A DNA stretch of 35,815 bases from Deltaproteobacteria bacterium (GTDB lineage Bacteria > Desulfobacterota > Desulfovibrionia > Desulfovibrionales > Desulfomicrobiaceae), in NCBI GenBank assembly GCA_009929795.1, contig RZZR01000012.1:1-35815 (forward strand). The letters are read 5' to 3'. How positions within the stretch are numbered: the first letter of the stretch is position 1; every line of letters starts with the position of its first letter. The position numbers were made by a program, and so were the translations under genes. Shown piece by piece: positions 1 through 9,673 of the stretch. The notes beneath the pieces were generated by a model. It did no database searches and was not told the origin of the DNA. It saw only the letters and a program-made list of their open reading frames with translations.

Positions 1-1952
1 TCCATGAGTTCATAGATGATGTCGCCGTCGGGGCGGGTGTCGCCCAGCGGCCTGGGGCCCTGGTAGCGCCACTGCATCCAGCGGCCGGAGTTGATGATGG
101 ATCCTTCCTTCTCAATGGATACCGCGCAGGGGAGCATGAAGACCTCGGTCTTGATCTTTGTGGGATCCATGTCCGGGCCTTTCCAGAAGCTGGCGGTCTC
201 GTTGTCGAAGATGTTGACGTTGACCATCCAGTCGAGCTTGGTCATGGCCTCGCGGGTCTTAGTGGAGTTGGCCCCGCCGCAGGCCGGGTTCTGCCCCCAG
301 GCGAAAAAGCCCTTGAACTGACCCTTGAGCATCTCATCGAAGAGAACCAGCCAGCTGTAGTCACGGGCTGATCCGGATTCGAGCTTGGGCAGATAGTTGT
401 ACGAGGTGGCCGGGTCGACATCCATCCACATGGATTTGAGCAGGCTGGCCATGTACTTGGGTTTGTTCTGCCACCAGTTGGCGGACATGGGATCAGTGGA
501 AGACGGCGTGTTCTTGGCGTTGTAGTCGGTCAGGGAAGCCAGACTGGAGGTCGGCGTTCCCAGGTATCCCGGCAGGATGTGGTAAAGCAGAGCATGGTCA
601 GTGGAGCCCTGGACGTTGGACTCGCCGCGCAGGGCGTTGACTCCGCCGCCGGCCACGCCGATGTTGCCCAAGAGAAGCTGGATAATGGCCATGGTCCGGA
701 TATTCTGGACGCCCACGGTGTGCTGGGTCCAGCCCATGGCGTACATGATGGTCCCGGACTTGTCCGGGGCCCCGGTGGAGGCGTAGGCCTCGTAGACCTT
801 GATCAGATCGGCCTCGGGGGTCCCGGAGACGTTGGAGACGTCCTTCATGTTGTAGCGGTCGAAATGCTTTTTCAGAAGCTGGAAGACGCAACGGGGATTT
901 TGCAGGGTGTTGTCCCGCTTGGGCACACCGTTGGAATCCTTTTCAAAGGCCCAAGTGGACTTGTCATAGTTCCTGGTCTTGGGATCGAAGCCGGAAAAGA
1001 GACCGTCCTTGAACCCGTACTTCTCGTTCACGATGAAGGAGGCGTTGGTGTAGTTGATCAGGTAGTCCTGAAAGAACTTTTTCTTTTCAAGGATGTACTT
1101 GATCATGCCGCCCAGAACGGCGATGTCGGCCCCGGACCGGATAGGGGCGTAGATGTCGGCCTTGGTCGAGGTTCTCGTGAACCTGGGGTCGACGTGAATG
1201 ACCGTGGCCCCGTTGTCCTTGGCCTTCATGACCCATTTGAAGGAGATGGGATGGTTTTCGGCAGCGTTGCTGCCCATGATCAAAATGCAATCACTGTTCT
1301 TGAGGTCGATCCAGTGATTGGTCATCGCACCGCGCCCGAACGACTCTGCCAGAGCCGCAACAGTGGCGCTGTGTCAGATACGCGCCTGGTGCTCCACGAA
1401 CACCAGGCCAAGCGATCTGAGGAAGGTCTGGTAGGCCCAGCACTCCTCGTTGTCCATGGCCGCCGAACCGACCGAGGCCATGCCCATGGTCCGGTTGACG
1501 GTCTGCCCCTTGTCATTCTTCTCCAGAAACGAGGCGTCCCGGGTGTCCTTGATCAGATGGGCGATGCGGTCCAGGGCCCAGTCCCAGGATTTGACTTCCC
1601 ATTCCTTGGCATAGGGAGCCCGGTAGAGGACGTTGGTGATGCGGTCCTTGTTCTCGGCCAATTGCCAGAGAGATGCACCCTTGGCGCACAGGGACCCTTC
1701 GTTGATGGGATGGTCGGGGTCGCCCTCGACGTTGATGGCCCGGCCGGCGTTGTCCTTGGACGTGTGGACAACGAGTCCACATCCGACGGCACAGTAGCAG
1801 CAGACCGAAGTGGTCTGCTTGGCCCAGCGCAACTTCAAGAGTTGGGCCTGGGCCACGGTGGGCTTGACCAGATCGATGCCCAGGCCGCCGAAGGCTGCGA
1901 CAGCCGCGGTGGCACCGGTCAGTTTGAGAAATTTTCTTCGACAGATTTCCAT
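1..1952 (-). CDS. fdnG: Formate dehydrogenase alpha subunit, selenocysteine-containing, 3' part cut by window edge
   Basis: Catalytic subunit of a periplasmic molybdo/tungsto-bis-MGD formate dehydrogenase (formate to CO2). The N-terminus carries a twin-arginine signal (RRKFLKLTG, residues 5-13) and a hydrophobic stretch. A CCYCAVGCG motif near residue 55 binds the 4Fe-4S cluster, followed by the SLCAKG motif. An in-frame TGA (complement 1374-1376) is codon 193 and reads as selenocysteine in the context EHQARI-U-HSATVAALAES, the conserved active-site position of this family. The frame stays open from there to base 1, giving FDH-N-like sequence such as GRGAMTNHWIDLKNSD and the IMYAMGWTQHTVG region. 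Start chosen at 1952 because AGGAGG lies just upstream. About 650 codons are visible; the C-terminal part, and any beta subunit, lie outside the window. Identity is very secure; metal (Mo or W) cannot be told. Confidence 0.96.
1332..1376 (-). promoter_or_regulatory. UGA selenocysteine codon and SECIS hairpin of fdnG
   Basis: On the minus strand the TGA at 1376-1374 is followed after four bases by GCGCC (1369-1365), which pairs with GGCGC (1336-1332). Inside are ACT/AGT and TGC/GCA pairings around a GGCTCTG apical loop. This matches the layout of bacterial SECIS elements, a bulged stem a short distance 3' of the UGA with a GG-containing loop, which bind SelB. Pairing was done by eye. Confidence 0.75.
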
Positions 1953-1978: not shown

Positions 1979-2200
1979 TCAGCGTCCCCGAATTTCCCGC
2001 CCCAGCCGGACAAGCCGGTCGTACCCGGCCAGAAAGGTGGGGGGGATTTCGGGAAACCATAGCCGGTCGTGAAGCCGGTCCTGCCTTGGGCAGGGCCGTA
2101 ACTTCATGCGGGCGGCCCCGGTCAGGACCGATCCCGTCAAGGCCGCACCAAGGCCGAAAAATGGCAGTGGCGCGGGTTGGAGTGTAGATTTGATGGTCAT
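1979..2200 (-). CDS. Small putative membrane protein upstream of formate dehydrogenase
   Basis: A 73-residue reading frame ending 26 bases before the fdnG start. The start at 2200 (MTIKST) is chosen over an in-frame ATG at 2212 because GGGAGG lies 5 bases upstream of it. Residues ~10-30 form one hydrophobic segment rich in Leu, Gly and Ala, followed by a basic tail with several Arg, so a single-pass membrane peptide with a cytoplasmic C-terminus is plausible. No family is recognised. Its position suggests co-transcription with fdnG and perhaps a role in assembly or export. It could also be only a translated leader. Confidence 0.5.
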   Translation of the reverse strand: MTIKSTLQPAPLPFFGLGAALTGSVLTGAARMKLRPCPRQDRLHDRLWFPEIPPTFLAGYDRLVRLGREIRGR

Positions 2201-2289
2201 AGAACCTCCCATTTCAAAAGACGATCACTTCGATATCTTTTGATATGATCACTCAATAGGACTGGGGGGATATACGGACAACAAAGAGA

Positions 2290-3804
2290 CTATTGCTTTT
2301 GATCTGGCACCAAAGCGCAGAGGGCCTTGGCAAAGAGGGGGAAGAGGTCCTGTTCACGATGGTTGTGACGGAACTCGATTTCCTTGAGATAGAGGGGAAA
2401 GCGGTGCGGCGTGATGCCGTTGTAGCTCATGAGGAGTTGGCGGGCTTCAAGCCAGAAGGGGGAAGGGAAGGCGTCCAAATGTATGGGGCGAGGATTGGCC
2501 CTGATGGAAAAGTACGGCAGAGTGTCGTTGCCGAAAAAGAGGAGACCGTTGTAGTGCTGGTAGCGGTCGGTGTAGACCAGATGGCCCATGCGTTTGATGC
2601 TCAGGCTGAAGTTCAAGTTGAAATGGAAGATTGTTTCGGCGTCCAGGTTAGGGAGATAGTCGAGAAAAACGAAGGAACTGCGGTCCAGAAGGCCGAAGAC
2701 GGGGATGAAATGGGGATCGCGGTCCGTCCGGTCCATTTTCAATTTCGTTCCGGTCAGGCCGATCTTGGGGGCCAGTTCGGGCGAGAGCAGGATGTCGGCG
2801 TCCAGGGACTGGGCCAGAATCGAGAAGCGCAGGATGGTCAGAGCCTTGTAGACGGTGTTGTAGACCAGATCCATTTCCCGGGCCACGGCGTTGGCGGTGG
2901 GCAATCGCACGTAAAGTCGCAACAGGCGGACCCAATTTAGGGGGCTGATACTGCAGAGGTTGAGCCAGCGTCGGGAAAAGGCGTGGAAGGTGTAGCGGCA
3001 GCGGCCGCAACGCATGCGTCCCTCTGACAGTCGGTAGACGTTTTTATGGCCGCATCGGGGGCAGAATGGTCCGCCATCGGGCCAGCAGAAGCCTTCCATC
3101 CATTGTTTGGCCTCATTCTCGTTCTCGAAAACGGCCTGGGGAACCGATTCGTCCGTTTCGGGGTGTCCGGCGATCAGTCCGGTCTGGCTGGCCTGCTTGA
3201 GAATTCGCCGGGCCTTGGCCAGATCGTTGGGGAAATTGATATTGAAGAAGGCGATGCCATCGGGGCCGTCGGGATTGTAGGGAACGTGGCAGCGGGTCTT
3301 GGGTGGAAAGATTGACCACAGGCTGCGCCGGCCCTGGGCCAGGGCCTTACGAATGAGTGGCAAGGCCTCGGGTTCGTACACGGACACCAAGGACTCGACG
3401 TATCCGGTGCCCGGCTGGAGAAATGTGGTCATCAGGGTGCCCGGGGGACGCTTGACCCATGCCTCGATCAGGCGCTGAAGGGTGTTGCTATCCATGAAGG
3501 GCAGATCGCAGGATGTTACCAGACAGGGGCGGCCCGTCCGGTCCAGAATGCTGGCCACGCCCCCGGCCGGGCCGAGACCGGGGACGGCGTCAGGAATCCA
3601 GGGAACGTCCAAGCCGTGGGACGTCGCGTCCCGGCCGACAACCCAGACTTCATCGACTAGGCCTTCCAGCCTCCGGACACTGGCCACGAGCTGGTCGTCA
3701 ACACCGAGACGAATCCGGGCCTTGTCACGGCCCAGCCGTGAGCTGCGGCCTCCGGCCAGTACAGCTCCGATCAGGGCAGGCGGTTCCGAATGCGGGTCTG
3801 GCAT
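2290..3804 (-). CDS. mobA: MobA-type molybdenum cofactor guanylyltransferase fused to a degenerate IS1595/ISXO2-like transposase
   Basis: Two-part protein of 504 aa; ordinary MobA is about 200 aa. Residues ~10-205 are MobA: the nucleotide-binding LAGGRSSRLGRDK motif, the metal-binding VTSCDLPFMD and the terminal NINFPNDLAKA. This domain would attach GMP to Mo-molybdopterin for the bis-MGD of the adjacent formate dehydrogenase. Residues ~230-504 resemble an IS1595-family transposase: a zinc ribbon (C248, C251, C266, C269), a helical region, then a DDE-like fold ending in an NGI...FPLYLKEIEFRHNHR block. Only the middle acidic position is evident (TDRYQHY, D413). The usual DE near the first strand reads SPELAPKIG, and the Glu before FW reads SPFW, so transposition activity is unlikely. 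There is no frameshift or stop at the junction. It lies 23 bases downstream of fdhE, with a possible AGGAG before the start. Confidence 0.85.
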   Translation of the reverse strand: MPDPHSEPPALIGAVLAGGRSSRLGRDKARIRLGVDDQLVASVRRLEGLVDEVWVVGRDATSHGLDVPWIPDAVPGLGPAGGVASILDRTGRPCLVTSCDLPFMDSNTLQRLIEAWVKRPPGTLMTTFLQPGTGYVESLVSVYEPEALPLIRKALAQGRRSLWSIFPPKTRCHVPYNPDGPDGIAFFNINFPNDLAKARRILKQASQTGLIAGHPETDESVPQAVFENENEAKQWMEGFCWPDGGPFCPRCGHKNVYRLSEGRMRCGRCRYTFHAFSRRWLNLCSISPLNWVRLLRLYVRLPTANAVAREMDLVYNTVYKALTILRFSILAQSLDADILLSPELAPKIGLTGTKLKMDRTDRDPHFIPVFGLLDRSSFVFLDYLPNLDAETIFHFNLNFSLSIKRMGHLVYTDRYQHYNGLLFFGNDTLPYFSIRANPRPIHLDAFPSPFWLEARQLLMSYNGITPHRFPLYLKEIEFRHNHREQDLFPLFAKALCALVPDQKQ

Positions 3805-3827: not shown

Positions 3828-4715
3828 TCAGAAGCCCCAGGCCGAAAGGGTTGGACGCTGAAACCCGTTTTCGCGAGCCAGGATGTCCAAGGCCAGGGAT
3901 TCAAGGTCGTCCAGAACCGGAACCGAGACCTTGTCGAAATTCCGGAAGTCGGCGGTCTTAATGTACCTCATGCATGACCGGCAGACTTCGACCCTGAAGC
4001 CCGGTACTTCCTTGGCCTCGAAGTATTCGAGGCGGGCCGTGTTCTCCTCCCGACAGAAGGGGCATTGGAGACGTTTGGCCCGGTAGTCGGTCAGACAGAA
4101 GGAGCAGGTCAGAAACCGGTGCCCTTCGATTTGCCTGAGCGATCCTATCAGGGGTGGTGAACCGCAAATGGGGCAATGGCCGTGCTGCCAGGTTTTCAAG
4201 GAGTCGTAGTGGAGGGCGATTTTGGCGGCGAAGGCCATGAGCCCCGGGGTGAGGGCCGACTGGACCAGGAAGTTCAGAAGCCTCGGGGCCTGGGGCGTAC
4301 GCTCACCGTATGAGGCCAACCAGGAGTCGTCAGCCTGAACGAATTTGATGAAGGCTTCGTCAATGACAATTTCACCGGAATTCAGCATTTCGTTCAGGGT
4401 CGATGCGGATGTTGCCAGTTCTCCTTCCCGCTCCTTGAGCATGCCCAGCAATTCCCGAAACAGGGCCTCGGATCCTTTCGGATCGAAGCCGAAGGCTTCT
4501 CGAGGGCAGAGGGGGACACCTTGAAGGTTTCGCTCGGGAGATTCGATCGTTTTCGGATCGGGGTCACCAGGGGCGATGGTCTCCAGGGCCTTCATCTGTC
4601 TTGAAACTGTCTCAGTGACGAGGGTCAGGAGCTGAGCCGGAAGAAGATCCCCTGAGGACAGGGCCTTGATCTTTTTTTGCCACAGGCGGCGAAGGTGTTC
4701 GTAGTCGATGGTCAT
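3828..4715 (-). CDS. fdhE: FdhE-like formate dehydrogenase accessory protein
   Basis: About 295 aa, close to the usual FdhE length of ~300. The C-terminal half carries four paired-cysteine motifs in order, CPIC, CSFC, CPFC and CRSC (residues ~165-245), which form the rubredoxin-like iron-binding part of FdhE. FdhE proteins interact with formate dehydrogenase catalytic subunits and are needed for their activity. The start at 4715 (MTIDYEHLRR) is preferred over an upstream in-frame start at 4751 because AAGGAG lies 5-6 bases ahead of it. It is first in the minus-strand run fdhE, mobA-fusion, small protein, fdnG, and is divergent from the binding-protein gene at 4896. Family assignment is firm. 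Confidence 0.9.
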   Translation of the reverse strand: MTIDYEHLRRLWQKKIKALSSGDLLPAQLLTLVTETVSRQMKALETIAPGDPDPKTIESPERNLQGVPLCPREAFGFDPKGSEALFRELLGMLKEREGELATSASTLNEMLNSGEIVIDEAFIKFVQADDSWLASYGERTPQAPRLLNFLVQSALTPGLMAFAAKIALHYDSLKTWQHGHCPICGSPPLIGSLRQIEGHRFLTCSFCLTDYRAKRLQCPFCREENTARLEYFEAKEVPGFRVEVCRSCMRYIKTADFRNFDKVSVPVLDDLESLALDILARENGFQRPTLSAWGF

Positions 4716-4801
4716 GTTGACTCCTTGTAAGTGGTATGTAGGGCAAATCACGGGAAGGAGCAGGTGAGCATATATTACTCATGGTATGGCACAAAATCTG
4801 A

Positions 4802-4895: not shown

Positions 4896-6215
4896 ATGAA
4901 GTTCACGGTCCTTCAGCTGGCCCGGCTGGCCGGATTTCTCTGTCTTCTGGGGCTTGTTTTGTCTGTTCTGGCCTGCAACGGCCCGAGCCCTTCGCACCGA
5001 GACGATCATTCCTCTCCGGGGGTATCTCCGACGGAGATCCTGCTCGGTTCTTCTCTGCCCCTGACGGGCCATGCCCGGTATCTTGGTATCCAGACCCTTC
5101 GGGGTGCCATGACCTACATCGACGAGGTCAATAACAAGGGTGGAGTCCATGGGCGAAAGATTCGGGTTGTGGCCTACGACGACCGGTACGACCCGCCCAT
5201 GTGCCTGGCCAACACCCAACGTCTGATCATCGAAGAACAGGTTTTCGCCCTGTTCTGCTATGTGGGGACTCCGACCACCGTCAAGATCATCCCCATGGTC
5301 GAGGACGCCAGAATTCCCCTTCTGGGCATGTTCACCGGAGCCAACGCACTTCGAGAGCCCTTCAACCGCTATATCATCAATGTCCGAGCCTCGTACTACC
5401 AGGAAACCAGAGCAGCGGTCCGGCACCTGGTCAAGGATCTGGGTATTGAAAATATTGCAGTCTTCTACCAGTACGACGCCTACGGATTTGACGGTCTGAC
5501 CGGCACTGAGCTGGCCCTGAAGGAGTTCGGGCTGGCTCCGGTGGCCAGGGGGACCTACGTCCGGGGAACCATGGACGTGTCCGACGGCCTGCAGAAGATC
5601 ATGCATTCCGGGGCCGAGGCTGTGGTCATGATCGGGACATACGACCCGTGCGCCAAGTTCATCCAGGAGGCACTGACTCAGGGGTTTGATCCCATTTTCT
5701 ACACGGTTTCCTTCGTGGGAGCCGACGAACTGGCTAGGCATTTCACCGAGGACGGGGACGAGGTCATCCTCATGTCCCAGGTGGTGCCCCCGCCCGAAGG
5801 GCCCGAAACTAGACAGCTTCTTGGGAGCGCGGCGGAATATGTTCAACTCATGGCCCGGGACTATCCCGACGACAAGCCCAACTTCGTGGGCCTCGAAGGA
5901 TACATCAACGCTCGGGTTTTGGTTGAGGGTCTCAGGCGAGCCGGTCCGAACCTGACCCGGGAGGGGTTCATCCAGGCCATCGAGTCTATGGATCAGTACT
6001 CCCTGGGCGGTGACACGAGCATAAGCTTTAGCCCCAGGGATCATCAGGGGATGGAGAGGGTTTATTTCACCAGGTTGCGGGGAGGTCAGTTCGTACTGGT
6101 CAGCGAACAGGATTGGCAGGACATGGCCAACGAAATCGAGATCAAGCGGCACAATCATGAGAGATTTGATCACGGGATGGAGGCTGCGGCTCTCCACGAT
6201 CAGCCTGAACAATAA
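4896..6215 (+). CDS. Lipoprotein periplasmic solute-binding protein (branched-chain amino acid type, Peripla_BP_6)
   Basis: A 439-aa secreted binding protein. The N-terminus is a lipoprotein signal: basic start, hydrophobic core, then VLAC with Cys27 as likely lipid-modified residue. The mature part begins with the family pattern TEILLGSSLPLTGHAR and continues through a two-lobed LivJ-like fold (GAMTYIDEVNNKGGVHGRKI; GTYDPCAKFIQEA). It would bind a small ligand at the outer face of the cytoplasmic membrane. No permease or ATPase gene is near. Instead its 3' end overlaps the start of a sensor kinase by 59 bases, so it probably delivers a ligand signal to that kinase rather than feeding a transporter. 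RBS: AAAGAGGGTG upstream. Ligand unknown. Confidence 0.85.
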   Translation: MKFTVLQLARLAGFLCLLGLVLSVLACNGPSPSHRDDHSSPGVSPTEILLGSSLPLTGHARYLGIQTLRGAMTYIDEVNNKGGVHGRKIRVVAYDDRYDPPMCLANTQRLIIEEQVFALFCYVGTPTTVKIIPMVEDARIPLLGMFTGANALREPFNRYIINVRASYYQETRAAVRHLVKDLGIENIAVFYQYDAYGFDGLTGTELALKEFGLAPVARGTYVRGTMDVSDGLQKIMHSGAEAVVMIGTYDPCAKFIQEALTQGFDPIFYTVSFVGADELARHFTEDGDEVILMSQVVPPPEGPETRQLLGSAAEYVQLMARDYPDDKPNFVGLEGYINARVLVEGLRRAGPNLTREGFIQAIESMDQYSLGGDTSISFSPRDHQGMERVYFTRLRGGQFVLVSEQDWQDMANEIEIKRHNHERFDHGMEAAALHDQPEQ

Positions 6216-8178
6216 GATCTTTTTCTCCACCCTCTTCGTTATTTTGGTCATCAGCGCGGCCATTGCCCTGCTGGCCAGGTGGATTCTTGTCTCCAGTCTG
6301 GAGTCCGAACTCCAGACCCGCGGTGTGGCCATCGCCCATAGCATCGCCGAGCGGGGCAGCGGGTTCATCCTGGAAAACAACAAGCCCATGCTCCTGAGCC
6401 TCATCTACGACGAGGCCACCCTCAGGGAGCGCCGCCAGCTCATCAACTACATCTTCATCACCGATCGGGAAGACAACATCCTGTCTCATACCCTGACCAA
6501 GCCGTTCCCGAAGACTGTCCCAGAGGCCAATCCGCTCCGAGACGGGGCGGCCAGCAGCATGGCCCTTCTGGACGTGGACGGGCGGCCGACCTATGACATC
6601 GCCGTACCTATCCGCGAGGGTATCTATCGGATTGGATCGGTCCACGTCGGTCTGAGCAAGGTCCACATGGACCAGTTGGTGGCCACCCTGAGGACGACCT
6701 TCCTGGGCTTCATCTCGGCCGTTGTCGTCATCATCTTCATCATCAGCCTCAAGCTGGCCAAGTCCATCACCCGCCCCCTGACCCAACTGACCAAGATTTC
6801 CGACGAGATCAGTCGGGGCAACTTCGACTTCAAGTTCGACTCGCTGAAGCACGGGGTGGACTGGGACGTGTCCAAATGTCCGGCCTATCGTGATACCAAC
6901 GTGCCCTGTTGGCATGTGGACGATCAGATTCAGGCCCACGATCTGCCCCCTGAGGCGTTGCACAACTGCAAGGAGTGTTTGTTCTATTCCAAGCGCCAGG
7001 GTGACGAGGTCGTCCAACTGGCCGACTCGTTCATGAACATGGTCTGGAGCATCCGCCTCTACCGACGCCGTCTCCAGGAGTCCGAGGCCAAGTACAAATC
7101 CTTGTTTGACAGCGGGCCGGACCCCATCTTCGTCGTCGACGCGTTCAGCGGTGAGATTCTGGACGGCAACCCCCGGGTAGAGGAACTGTACCTCTACACC
7201 AAGGGCGAGTTTCTGGGGATGAACTTCGTCGACCTGGGCCCTGAGCACAACAAGGATTTCCTGTCACATTTCGAGGCCGGATACGATACGACGGGCTTCG
7301 CCTATTTTCCAAAGATGCTTCATTACAAGAAGGGTGGCCAGCCCTTTTTCGTCAACATGCATGCCTGCCCCATCAGCTACAAAGGCAGACAGGCCATCAT
7401 CGTGGCCGCCACGGACATCACTGAGATGATAGAAAAAGACGCCCAGCTCATCCAGTCCAGCAAGATGAAGACCCTTGGTGAGATGTCGGCTGGCATCGCC
7501 CATGAATTGAATCAGCCCTTGAACGCCATCAAGATGGGAAGCGACTACCTTGCCATGGCCATTGAGCAGGATCTGGATTTGACTCCGGATCAGACCAGGG
7601 AGGTAGTTCGGGACATGAGCGTCCAGGTGGATCGGGCCACGGAAATCATCAACAACCTTCGGGCGTTCGGTCGGAAATCGAGCCTGATCACCGAGAGTTT
7701 GGACCTGAACAAACCGGTGCGAGGGGTCCTGTCCATCGTTCGACGACAGTTCAAGCTGGAGAACGTGGAGTTCGAACTCGACCTGGCCGAGGGCCTGCCC
7801 ATGATCCGGGCTCAGGATAACCGCTTGCAGCAGGTATTTTTCAATATCGTGACCAACGCCCGGGATGCCATTCTGGAGCGCGGACAGCGGCTTGCCCAGC
7901 CCTATGACGGCCTGATCAGGGTGAAGACCTTCCTCCAGGCTGACGGTCGGGTCGGCGTCAGCTTCACGGACAACGGCATCGGCATATCCAAGGAAAACAG
8001 GGACAAGATCTTCGAGCCCTTTTTCACCACCAAGGAGGCCGGGCAGGGCATGGGCCTTGGACTGGCCATCTCCTACGGGATCATCAAGGACTACGGAGGG
8101 GAAATCCAGATCATGGGCAAGGAGGGCGAGGGCACTACGTTCACCATCTCGTTCCCGGCTCTCAAGACCCAGTCATGA
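6157..8178 (+). CDS. Membrane sensor histidine kinase with HAMP, cysteine cluster and PAS domains
   Basis: A 673-aa kinase. TM1 at ~20-43, a periplasmic sensor region ~44-180, TM2 at ~181-203, HAMP ~200-235, then a cysteine-bearing linker (C241, C251-W, C271, C274), PAS ~310-425 and a kinase core. The core has phospho-acceptor H449 (AGIAHELNQPLN), N box (N567, FFNIVTNARD), G1 (TDNGIGI, D605) and G2 (GMGLGLA). It should autophosphorylate and pass phosphate to the receiver encoded next, whose start overlaps its stop (ATGA). The chosen start lies inside the binding-protein gene and has only a weak RBS, so the true start could be slightly different. The periplasmic region probably contacts the binding protein (inference). 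The four-Cys linker suggests metal or redox input. Confidence 0.9.
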   Translation: MRDLITGWRLRLSTISLNNKIFFSTLFVILVISAAIALLARWILVSSLESELQTRGVAIAHSIAERGSGFILENNKPMLLSLIYDEATLRERRQLINYIFITDREDNILSHTLTKPFPKTVPEANPLRDGAASSMALLDVDGRPTYDIAVPIREGIYRIGSVHVGLSKVHMDQLVATLRTTFLGFISAVVVIIFIISLKLAKSITRPLTQLTKISDEISRGNFDFKFDSLKHGVDWDVSKCPAYRDTNVPCWHVDDQIQAHDLPPEALHNCKECLFYSKRQGDEVVQLADSFMNMVWSIRLYRRRLQESEAKYKSLFDSGPDPIFVVDAFSGEILDGNPRVEELYLYTKGEFLGMNFVDLGPEHNKDFLSHFEAGYDTTGFAYFPKMLHYKKGGQPFFVNMHACPISYKGRQAIIVAATDITEMIEKDAQLIQSSKMKTLGEMSAGIAHELNQPLNAIKMGSDYLAMAIEQDLDLTPDQTREVVRDMSVQVDRATEIINNLRAFGRKSSLITESLDLNKPVRGVLSIVRRQFKLENVEFELDLAEGLPMIRAQDNRLQQVFFNIVTNARDAILERGQRLAQPYDGLIRVKTFLQADGRVGVSFTDNGIGISKENRDKIFEPFFTTKEAGQGMGLGLAISYGIIKDYGGEIQIMGKEGEGTTFTISFPALKTQS

Positions 8179-8888
8179 ACAGAATCCTGGTCATCGACGA
8201 TGAACGGCCGACGCTGAAGATGTTTTCCCTTTTTCTGCGGGCCTACGGATTCGACATGCTGGCGGCCGAGAGCGGTCGGGAAGGGCTGGAGATCTTCGAG
8301 CGGGAAAAGCCCCCTCTGGTGCTGACGGACGTCAAGATGCCCGGAATGGACGGACTGGGCGTACTCAAGCGGATCAAGGAGATTTCTCCGGAGTCCGAGG
8401 TCATAGTGGTCACCGGACATGGGGACATTGATCTGGCTTTGAAGACCTTGCGTCTTGGGGCGGCGGATTTCATTGCCAAGCCTATCGATCGCACGAGTCT
8501 GGAGGCGGCACTGAGCAGGGCCCGAGAGCGATTGGATTTGGCCCGGGAGAAGCGGGAGGAGATTCAGGTTCAGGAGACGGATCACGCCCTGATCCTTAAC
8601 TTCCGGGGCCATGTCAATGCGCCGTCGGAGCCTTTTCTCGCTCGGGCTATGACCAGGGCTTTGGAGGCGAACAAACCCCTTGTGCTTTTCAATTTCAATC
8701 CAAACATCTCGGTCAACGGCGTTGGCATGACCCTGCTGAGCGGGGCCATCGACCGGGCCGAACAGGCCGGAAAAACGGTTCGAATCGCCGGCCTTCCGGG
8801 ACATTTCCGCCAGGTTTTCGAGGCCGTGGGCATAGCCTCCAGGGCCGAGATTCACGACAGCCTGGATGCGGCCATGGCCTTGCCCTGA
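8175..8888 (+). CDS. Response regulator: receiver fused to a STAS domain
   Basis: A 237-aa protein. Residues 1-120 are a canonical receiver: acidic pair in VIDDE, phospho-acceptor D52 (LVLTDVKMPGMDG), and K102 (FIAKP). After a charged helical linker (~115-135), residues ~137-235 look like a STAS/anti-anti-sigma domain (HALILNFRGHVNAP ... SVNGVGMTLLSGAIDRAEQAGKTVRIAGL). In SpoIIAA-type proteins the phosphorylated Ser sits in a D-S-S-G motif; here the motif reads S-V-N-G, so control by an anti-sigma kinase on that residue is unlikely. Output is therefore probably protein-protein interaction rather than DNA binding. Start overlaps the kinase stop by four bases. The receiver call is firm, the STAS call somewhat less so. 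Confidence 0.85.
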   Translation: MNRILVIDDERPTLKMFSLFLRAYGFDMLAAESGREGLEIFEREKPPLVLTDVKMPGMDGLGVLKRIKEISPESEVIVVTGHGDIDLALKTLRLGAADFIAKPIDRTSLEAALSRARERLDLAREKREEIQVQETDHALILNFRGHVNAPSEPFLARAMTRALEANKPLVLFNFNPNISVNGVGMTLLSGAIDRAEQAGKTVRIAGLPGHFRQVFEAVGIASRAEIHDSLDAAMALP

Positions 8889-8926: not shown

Positions 8927-9673
8927 TTATGTCGGGCCTGCCCCCCCGAATACCCCCAAAGGATCGGCAAAGACCGAGAATCGTCCTTCCCGGGCAAAGG
9001 CGGCCAAGGACATGGATTCGTCCCGGATGATGGACATGGCTCCGGTGGTCGTGGCTGATCGGCTGACCACGGCGCGAAACCCTGCCCTGGCGGCCTTGGT
9101 GGCTAGAGAGGCGGTTATCCGGGCTGAAACGAACAGGACTAGTGAATCGGGAGTCCGGTGTTTCCGAAGGGCCCATGCCGCCAGACGATCCAGGCAATTG
9201 TGGCGGCCAATGTCTTCGACGGCATGGACCATGGCCCCTGTACCGGGATCAAAGAGCCCGGCCCGGTGAAAGCATCCGGTTCGGTCCCATTGTCCTCCGA
9301 CGGTCATGAAGTTGCGCATGGCTGTCAGGACACGATCCGGGGCCATGGGTTTCAGCGCCCCGATGGACCTGGGCCGGGGGTCGGGACCAGGCCGAAAAAA
9401 GAACTCGGATCGGCCGTTTTCGTCATGAGTATCTATCCCGTCCGGGACTGGCATCTCTCCCGGAGTGCAGTATTCGATCAGAGCGTAGCCGCTGGCCAGG
9501 TCCTCAAGGTCGCAGGGAAAGGCCCAGAGCCTTTGTGGAGGCCTTTGAGGCCAGTGTACGGTAATCCGGACTTCCGGGGCTATCCAGTCCTCGAAGGTTT
9601 TCCAGCGGCCATCCTTGAACTGACGGCATAGACCTTTGTCCGGACCTGGCCCCTGGGAGGCGGTGCTGGTCAT
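8927..9673 (-). CDS. fdhD: FdhD-like formate dehydrogenase accessory / sulfurtransferase family protein
   Basis: A 248-aa FdhD-family protein, a little shorter than E. coli FdhD (~277 aa). Family signatures: DRTGCFHRAGLF, then VEDIGRHNCLDRLAAW, then an SARITASLATKAARAGF block and SRSATTTGAMSI. FdhD transfers sulfur from IscS to the molybdenum cofactor of formate dehydrogenase. The CxxC motif whose cysteines carry the persulfide in E. coli is not visible; single Cys residues occur in TGCFH and HNCLD. It is last in a four-gene minus-strand run, and its ATG overlaps the stop of the upstream gene. It converges with the receiver-STAS gene. Confidence 0.85.
   Translation of the reverse strand: MTSTASQGPGPDKGLCRQFKDGRWKTFEDWIAPEVRITVHWPQRPPQRLWAFPCDLEDLASGYALIEYCTPGEMPVPDGIDTHDENGRSEFFFRPGPDPRPRSIGALKPMAPDRVLTAMRNFMTVGGQWDRTGCFHRAGLFDPGTGAMVHAVEDIGRHNCLDRLAAWALRKHRTPDSLVLFVSARITASLATKAARAGFRAVVSRSATTTGAMSIIRDESMSLAAFAREGRFSVFADPLGVFGGAGPT

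Follow-up and report, generated by a model that had tools for sequence, protein, structure and literature searches.

The window analyzed here is a 35,815-nucleotide stretch of a Desulfovibrionales genome (contig RZZR01000012.1) that carries a formate dehydrogenase gene neighborhood. Within it, the cofactor enzyme MobA is joined to a transposase-like protein, hereafter X. The original prediction placed this fusion at exactly 2290-3804 and named no strand; the ORF is real, encodes 504 aa and lies on the minus strand. The prediction also set it among formate dehydrogenase (FDH) genes, and indeed fdhE lies upstream, fdnG downstream and fdhD nearby. The features are:

1-1952, minus strand: fdnG, FDH catalytic subunit with a Tat signal, incomplete at the window edge and downstream of the fusion (Pfam Molybdopterin and Molybdop_Fe4S4; in-frame TGA at 1374-1376 read as selenocysteine, Sec; start set from the Tat motif)
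1979-2212, minus strand: small conserved ORF in the X-fdnG interval, with similar ORFs at other X loci
2290-3804, minus strand: fusion ORF, MobA plus X, 504 aa, start at 3804
3190-3804, minus strand: MobA half, residues 1-205 (Pfam NTP_transf_3, 3e-26; PDB 3ngw, MobA, 4e-11)
3136-3189, minus strand: linker, residues 206-223, without an in-frame ATG, GTG or TTG
2290-3135, minus strand: X half, residues 224-504 plus stop, very probably a domesticated IS1595 transposase (AlphaFold2 pLDDT 90.9)
2989-3123, minus strand: IS1595-type zinc ribbon, residues 228-272, with C248, C251, C266 and C269 (Pfam, 1e-10)
2362-2736, minus strand: DDE-like RNase H-type region, residues 357-481 (Pfam, 2e-8), with the D413 codon at 2566-2568
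3828-4751, minus strand: fdhE, 23 nt upstream of the fusion (Pfam FdhE_C and FdhE_central)
8927-9673, minus strand: fdhD, near the fusion

MobA had been predicted to be joined in frame to a zinc ribbon and a DDE-like region, and three Pfam domains are found in the one ORF, all exceeding Pfam's cut-offs: NTP_transf_3/MobA at residues 13-162 (3e-26), Zn_ribbon_IS1595 at 228-272 (1e-10) and DDE_Tnp_IS1595 at 357-481 (2e-8). The N-terminal half holds the whole NTP_transf_3 domain with the nucleotide-binding motifs LAGGxSxRxGxDKA and CDLP and, judged by its sequence, is a complete MobA domain (molybdenum cofactor guanylyltransferase). No second MobA match was found at E<=1 in this genome, which is roughly 96% complete, indicating that the fused MobA is probably its sole copy. 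The next ATG after the linker encodes M236, within the first helix of X. Given this position and the linker that lacks an in-frame start, X of the window is probably produced solely as part of the fusion. Alignment to intact IS1595 transposases identifies D413 as the middle Asp (VYTD), and the window copy has non-acidic residues in place of the first Asp (VDESYF motif) and the Glu (GIESFW/GLEGFW), in line with the expectation that the middle Asp alone would remain. Likewise, no pair of terminal repeats was found around the window gene.

The standalone X family, not the fusion, is the novelty. A MobA and/or X match is present in 93 of 101 genomes of the order, and the X proteins matched there stand alone, measure about 280-310 aa and are for the most part 38-48% identical. 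The genome of the window itself has three divergent X paralogs at separate loci, 30-39% identical to the window copy, and no near-identical mobile copies were found in it. One paralog, of subfamily B at C89, is a standalone X beside an FdhE-like gene and a second FDH; another, at C40 (L003/L052), is a standalone X beside ferredoxin and hybrid cluster protein (Hcp) genes. All four zinc-ribbon cysteines are present in 102 of 103 X copies, and the alignment contains a conserved HTH-like region and a LYLKELEFRYNHR motif. Structure prediction, which had been proposed as a check, gave a confident AlphaFold2 model of X (pLDDT 90.9, pTM 0.89) with the zinc ribbon and the helices of the HTH-like region; the accompanying Foldseek comparison with solved structures in the PDB returned no match at E<=0.001. 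Across 15 X pairs Ka/Ks is 0.007-0.30, the lowest values having saturated Ks. By this measure and by its conservation, X is under purifying selection across Desulfovibrionales and decay of the family is ruled out. Decay of the C-terminal half as a relic, which the original prediction had named as an observation that would speak against it, is thus not what is seen, since this half is conserved throughout the order. No paper on the X family was found in the open-access literature, the scope of that search. Automatic annotation may well call X genes transposases, thereby hiding them.

The origin of X was sought with one genome per species, in and beyond Desulfovibrionales. X was found in Desulfovibrionales. 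Its relatives outside the order, about 283 aa long and 33-41% identical, occur in Desulfobacterales, Syntrophaceae, Synergistota, Zixibacteria, Acidobacteria and others. Those of them that are intact belong to genuine elements about 0.9 kb long, whose 24-bp inverted repeats (GGTRATT...TTTGGCACC) sit tight against the ORF; in one such element (L160) an 8-bp target duplication, AACAATAA, is readable. A quick tree with SH-aLRT support separates all intact proteins from all X by a single branch (SH-aLRT 100). The canonical D-D-E triad is present in 17 of 17 intact outside relatives versus 0 of 103 X. It is therefore very likely that X is a domesticated family of IS1595 transposases, since its nearest relatives are intact IS1595 elements, the triad is gone in 103 X, and in several clades the inner half of the repeat survives beside X. 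With the IS1595 family (Zn_ribbon_IS1595 plus DDE_Tnp_IS1595, 'ISXO2-like') X shares the zinc ribbon, the HTH-like region, the RNase H-type domain and a C-terminal LKExEFRxN motif, and several X clades keep remnants of the inner half of the terminal inverted repeat (TIR). It differs in lacking the canonical triad, in that the outer TIR half and target site duplications (TSDs) were not found, and in occurring as single copies at recurrent loci. Exaptation, as originally proposed, is strongly supported, the C-terminal half being a conserved IS1595-derived family linked to FDH genes; the other observation named as speaking against it, a recent insertion with target duplication, is not seen at the window gene.

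Loss of the triad is not uniform in its details. Of 103 X copies, 72 retain the middle Asp and 31 have lost it. Acidic residues occupy all three aligned positions in 14 of the 103, in loops whose alignment is uncertain; these 14 may not all be inactive. A claim that every X lacks all catalytic acids was rejected as too strong on account of these 14. The same counts are what favors retention of nuclease or strand-transfer activity by X, at least in the three-acid clades, with X still acting on DNA ends, for instance as a rarely mobile or regulatory recombinase. Such activity is nevertheless very improbable: two of the three acids are missing from the window copy and from most others, no paired full TIRs or TSDs were found at X loci, and the synteny of X is fixed across genera. 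Two further observations concern IS1595-type proteins at large. L183 5989-6825 (Synergistota) sorts with the intact transposases and keeps the Glu, with the first and second Asp lost, and is possibly another inactive copy. The Desulfovibrionales genomes G013 and G087 harbor high-copy IS1595-type elements (16-27 matches) whose transposases have no zinc ribbon.

The flanks of X were scanned with a matrix built from the repeats of intact elements, with the palindrome TATGYCA-N4-TGRCATA masked and column-permuted matrices as the control. The inner 14 nt were enriched upstream of X in the left-TIR orientation (z about 3.5, 0/300 permutations) and downstream in the right-TIR orientation (z about 4.5, 0/300 permutations), whereas the outer 12 nt of the TIR and the wrong orientations in these flanks were not significant against the permuted matrices. 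With the two richest clades removed, the downstream signal (<=120 nt) stays at z 3.6-3.8 and the upstream signal is weak at z 1.5-1.8. In the flanks of hum1-clade copies, such sites are found 36-58 nt ahead of most X start codons and 37-70 nt past the stop, and among all 14-nt windows there they rank highest in conservation (0.75 versus a mean of 0.28 upstream, 0.91 versus 0.37 downstream). Members of clade hum2 have the remnant of the right end overlapping the X stop codon, an arrangement also seen in intact elements. The conserved TIR-derived sites beside X are of the GGTGCCAAAGCTTGCGCA type, and a candidate site of the GGTGCCAAA type lies in the X-fdnG intergenic DNA. Upstream of fdnG, a site above 10 bits on the relevant strand occurs in 20 of 55 regions with X versus 0 of 9 readable X-less regions, counts that come from related sequences and hence are not statistically independent. 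Clear TIR-like sites are limited to some X clades. The window copy has no recognizable TIR-like site, and mobA coding sequence now occupies the DNA upstream of its X.

In such elements the inner part of the terminal repeats is generally the part that is bound. An inner part kept and an outer part lost would be the pattern expected of a binding site that has outlived mobility. Two other readings of these remnants were rejected: full-length TIR fossils do not occur beside X, where the inner half alone survives, and a TIR-like 13-mer does not single out X genome-wide, most of its matches lying elsewhere.

The masked palindrome is a separate matter. This 18-bp motif was found de novo upstream of many fdnG genes, scoring 80-110 versus 25-35 in shuffles, and in three genomes it provides the sole exact site between X and fdnG. 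Genome-wide there are about 19 occurrences in 101 genomes (for example, L207-L223), at MoeA-like, AOR and FDH genes, sometimes beside modE-like genes, and also in two genomes without an X match. As an operator of X it was rejected, given its presence at Mo/W-type genes and in the two X-less genomes. It is probably the site of a ModE/TaoR-type regulator and thus a putative Mo/W-responsive operator. TaoR regulates tungsten aldehyde oxidoreductase (PMC11980592).

The gene neighbors of X bear on its function. X is usually found immediately upstream of fdnG. At 55 loci a Tat-type FDH gene follows X on the same strand, no more than 1.5 kb away, and the gene order is fdhE, fdhD, mobA, moaA, X, fdnG, fdnH, or a subset of it. 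These fdnG-type loci often include divergent genes for a periplasmic-binding protein, a histidine kinase and a response regulator. In the window, a conserved operon of this kind at 4896-8888 on the plus strand adjoins the FDH genes and encodes a periplasmic-binding protein, an sCache histidine kinase and a STAS-domain response regulator; it is a candidate sensor for the FDH genes. A second group of X genes has ModE-like and FmdE genes as neighbors, together with another FDH that in some cases has no in-frame TGA. Members of a third group lie beside Hcp and/or NrfHA (the C40 copy, L059, L061, L067 and L068), which suggests that these paralogs are a nitrosative-stress branch of the family. A fourth group is directly beside the topoisomerase I gene, topA (L045, L050, L069 and L156). 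The original prediction had tied the protein to cofactor synthesis, to FdhE or FdnG, or to regulation. The family as a whole shows no special tie to MobA or FdhE; what it does share is linkage to operons for FDH, Mo/W and nitrosative-stress enzymes.

Proximity to fdhE, fdhD, mobA, moaA and fdnG, together with the fusion to MobA in this genome and the fact that FdhE itself belongs to a zinc-binding protein family by Pfam, could point to X as an FDH maturation or assembly factor that binds FdnG or FdhE or passes on the cofactor, in which case the fusion would couple synthesis with insertion. This reading is unlikely. FdnG homologs also occur in genomes without X among the matches listed, so that the enzyme as such can do without X; Hcp, NrfHA and topA, beside which X paralogs lie, do not need molybdopterin; and a protein chaperone would have no need of TIR-derived DNA sites. 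A tie of X to selenocysteine was rejected, X also adjoining FDH genes without an in-frame TGA. In a related proposal, X would bind the fdnG messenger RNA, for example acting on selenocysteine decoding. The zinc ribbon of X is of a type that by fold and sequence also resembles ribosomal proteins, and window X is just upstream of a Sec-containing fdnG, but such RNA binding is most improbable given that X is also found with FDH genes that have no in-frame TGA (L038) and with non-FDH operons, and that the conserved sites lie outside fdnG and have a terminal-repeat origin.

We infer that regulation fits all of the gene settings of X most easily. The explanation favored here, with moderate confidence and from sequence comparison, is that X acts as a local DNA-binding regulator, most likely of fdnG, a reading that draws partly on guilt by association. 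An IS1595 transposase would have been domesticated in Desulfovibrionales with loss of its canonical triad and retention of its zinc ribbon and HTH-like region. X would still bind the TIR-derived candidate operators, both those beside its own gene and those in the X-fdnG interval, and would regulate itself and the adjacent FDH. A wider and more tentative version holds that the paralogs may be operon-specific factors for FDH, Mo/W and nitrosative-stress enzymes that use inner TIR halves as operators, one of which was then fused to MobA.

The fusion itself is rare. MobA and X are in one ORF in the window only, among 121 aligned loci. A search for the same fusion in other genomes, as had been suggested, yielded none among these loci or among the matches listed in 348 genomes of the order; fdhE is part of the gene order at fdnG-type X loci. 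Among those listed matches the only other one spanning both halves is G623, which shares its contig with L105 (Desulfovibrio sp. UBA6079). There mobA stops with TGA, X begins 27 nt on without a change of frame, and the genes run fdhE, fdhD, mobA, X, fdnG. Long ORFs at L036, L046 and L044 that hinted at further fusions were rejected, none containing a MobA match. A complete MobA domain is what the fusion has in common with other MobA proteins, and X as a C-terminal extension is so far seen in this genome only, among the matches listed. From an ancestral order fdhE-fdhD-mobA-X-fdnG, the neighbors mobA and X would have fused, most simply through loss of the mobA stop codon. An assembly error is unlikely because the join is in frame and at domain borders. 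In the tree, window X clusters with Desulfovibrionaceae copies, not with those of its own family, and L105 is the closest X to it; transfer of the operon carrying window X is therefore possible.

Fusion would put the presumed regulator onto the enzyme that makes the cofactor. A regulator tethered in this way is one possibility for the added role of the fusion, and a passenger is another. In the latter case the family would be functional elsewhere, the operator lost here, and MobA the only part that matters. The long branch of window X in the tree (0.96), the lack of a TIR-like site in the window and the separate subfamily-B copy that the genome retains at C89 are consistent with a passenger, which is nonetheless rather doubtful for a protein that still has every zinc and core residue, an uninterrupted frame of 281 codons and 46-50% identity to its relatives.

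If X is a regulator, as favored here, it would join TunR and TaoR as a mobile-element-derived factor around Mo/W enzymes in sulfate reducers. TunR and TaoR are said, in work attributed to Kazakov et al. 2013 and Rajeev et al. 2019, to be Mo/W regulators of sulfate reducers, and reportedly bind DNA through domains akin to those of mobile-element proteins (Xer recombinase, phage excisionase). They resemble X, whose role and DNA binding are predicted, in the bacteria concerned, in the connection with Mo/W transport and enzymes and in the tie to mobile elements; X differs in its DDE transposase origin and in having no recognized oxyanion-binding domain. TldR proteins are nuclease-dead, TnpB-derived repressors that are RNA-guided. 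The predicted role of X is similar in that a catalytically dead transposon protein is reused as a local regulator, whereas X is a relative of DDE-type enzymes and TldR is guided by RNA. To our knowledge, few cases of bacterial DDE transposases turned host proteins are well documented, and with X the ancestor, an intact IS1595 with full repeats, can be aligned with a descendant family that lacks the canonical triad. A regulatory role would also bear on the formate metabolism of sulfate reducers, whose W-formate dehydrogenases are studied for CO2 reduction.

Finally, the small ORF of the X-fdnG interval, about 72-120 aa long, is found in the window and again at L124, L109, L041, L043, L105 and other loci. 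Its product carries the motif LPFxGLGxDL, often together with a C-terminal LGREIRGR, and LPFxGLGxDL is similar to the AFGGLGxDL tail of the FdnG Tat signal.
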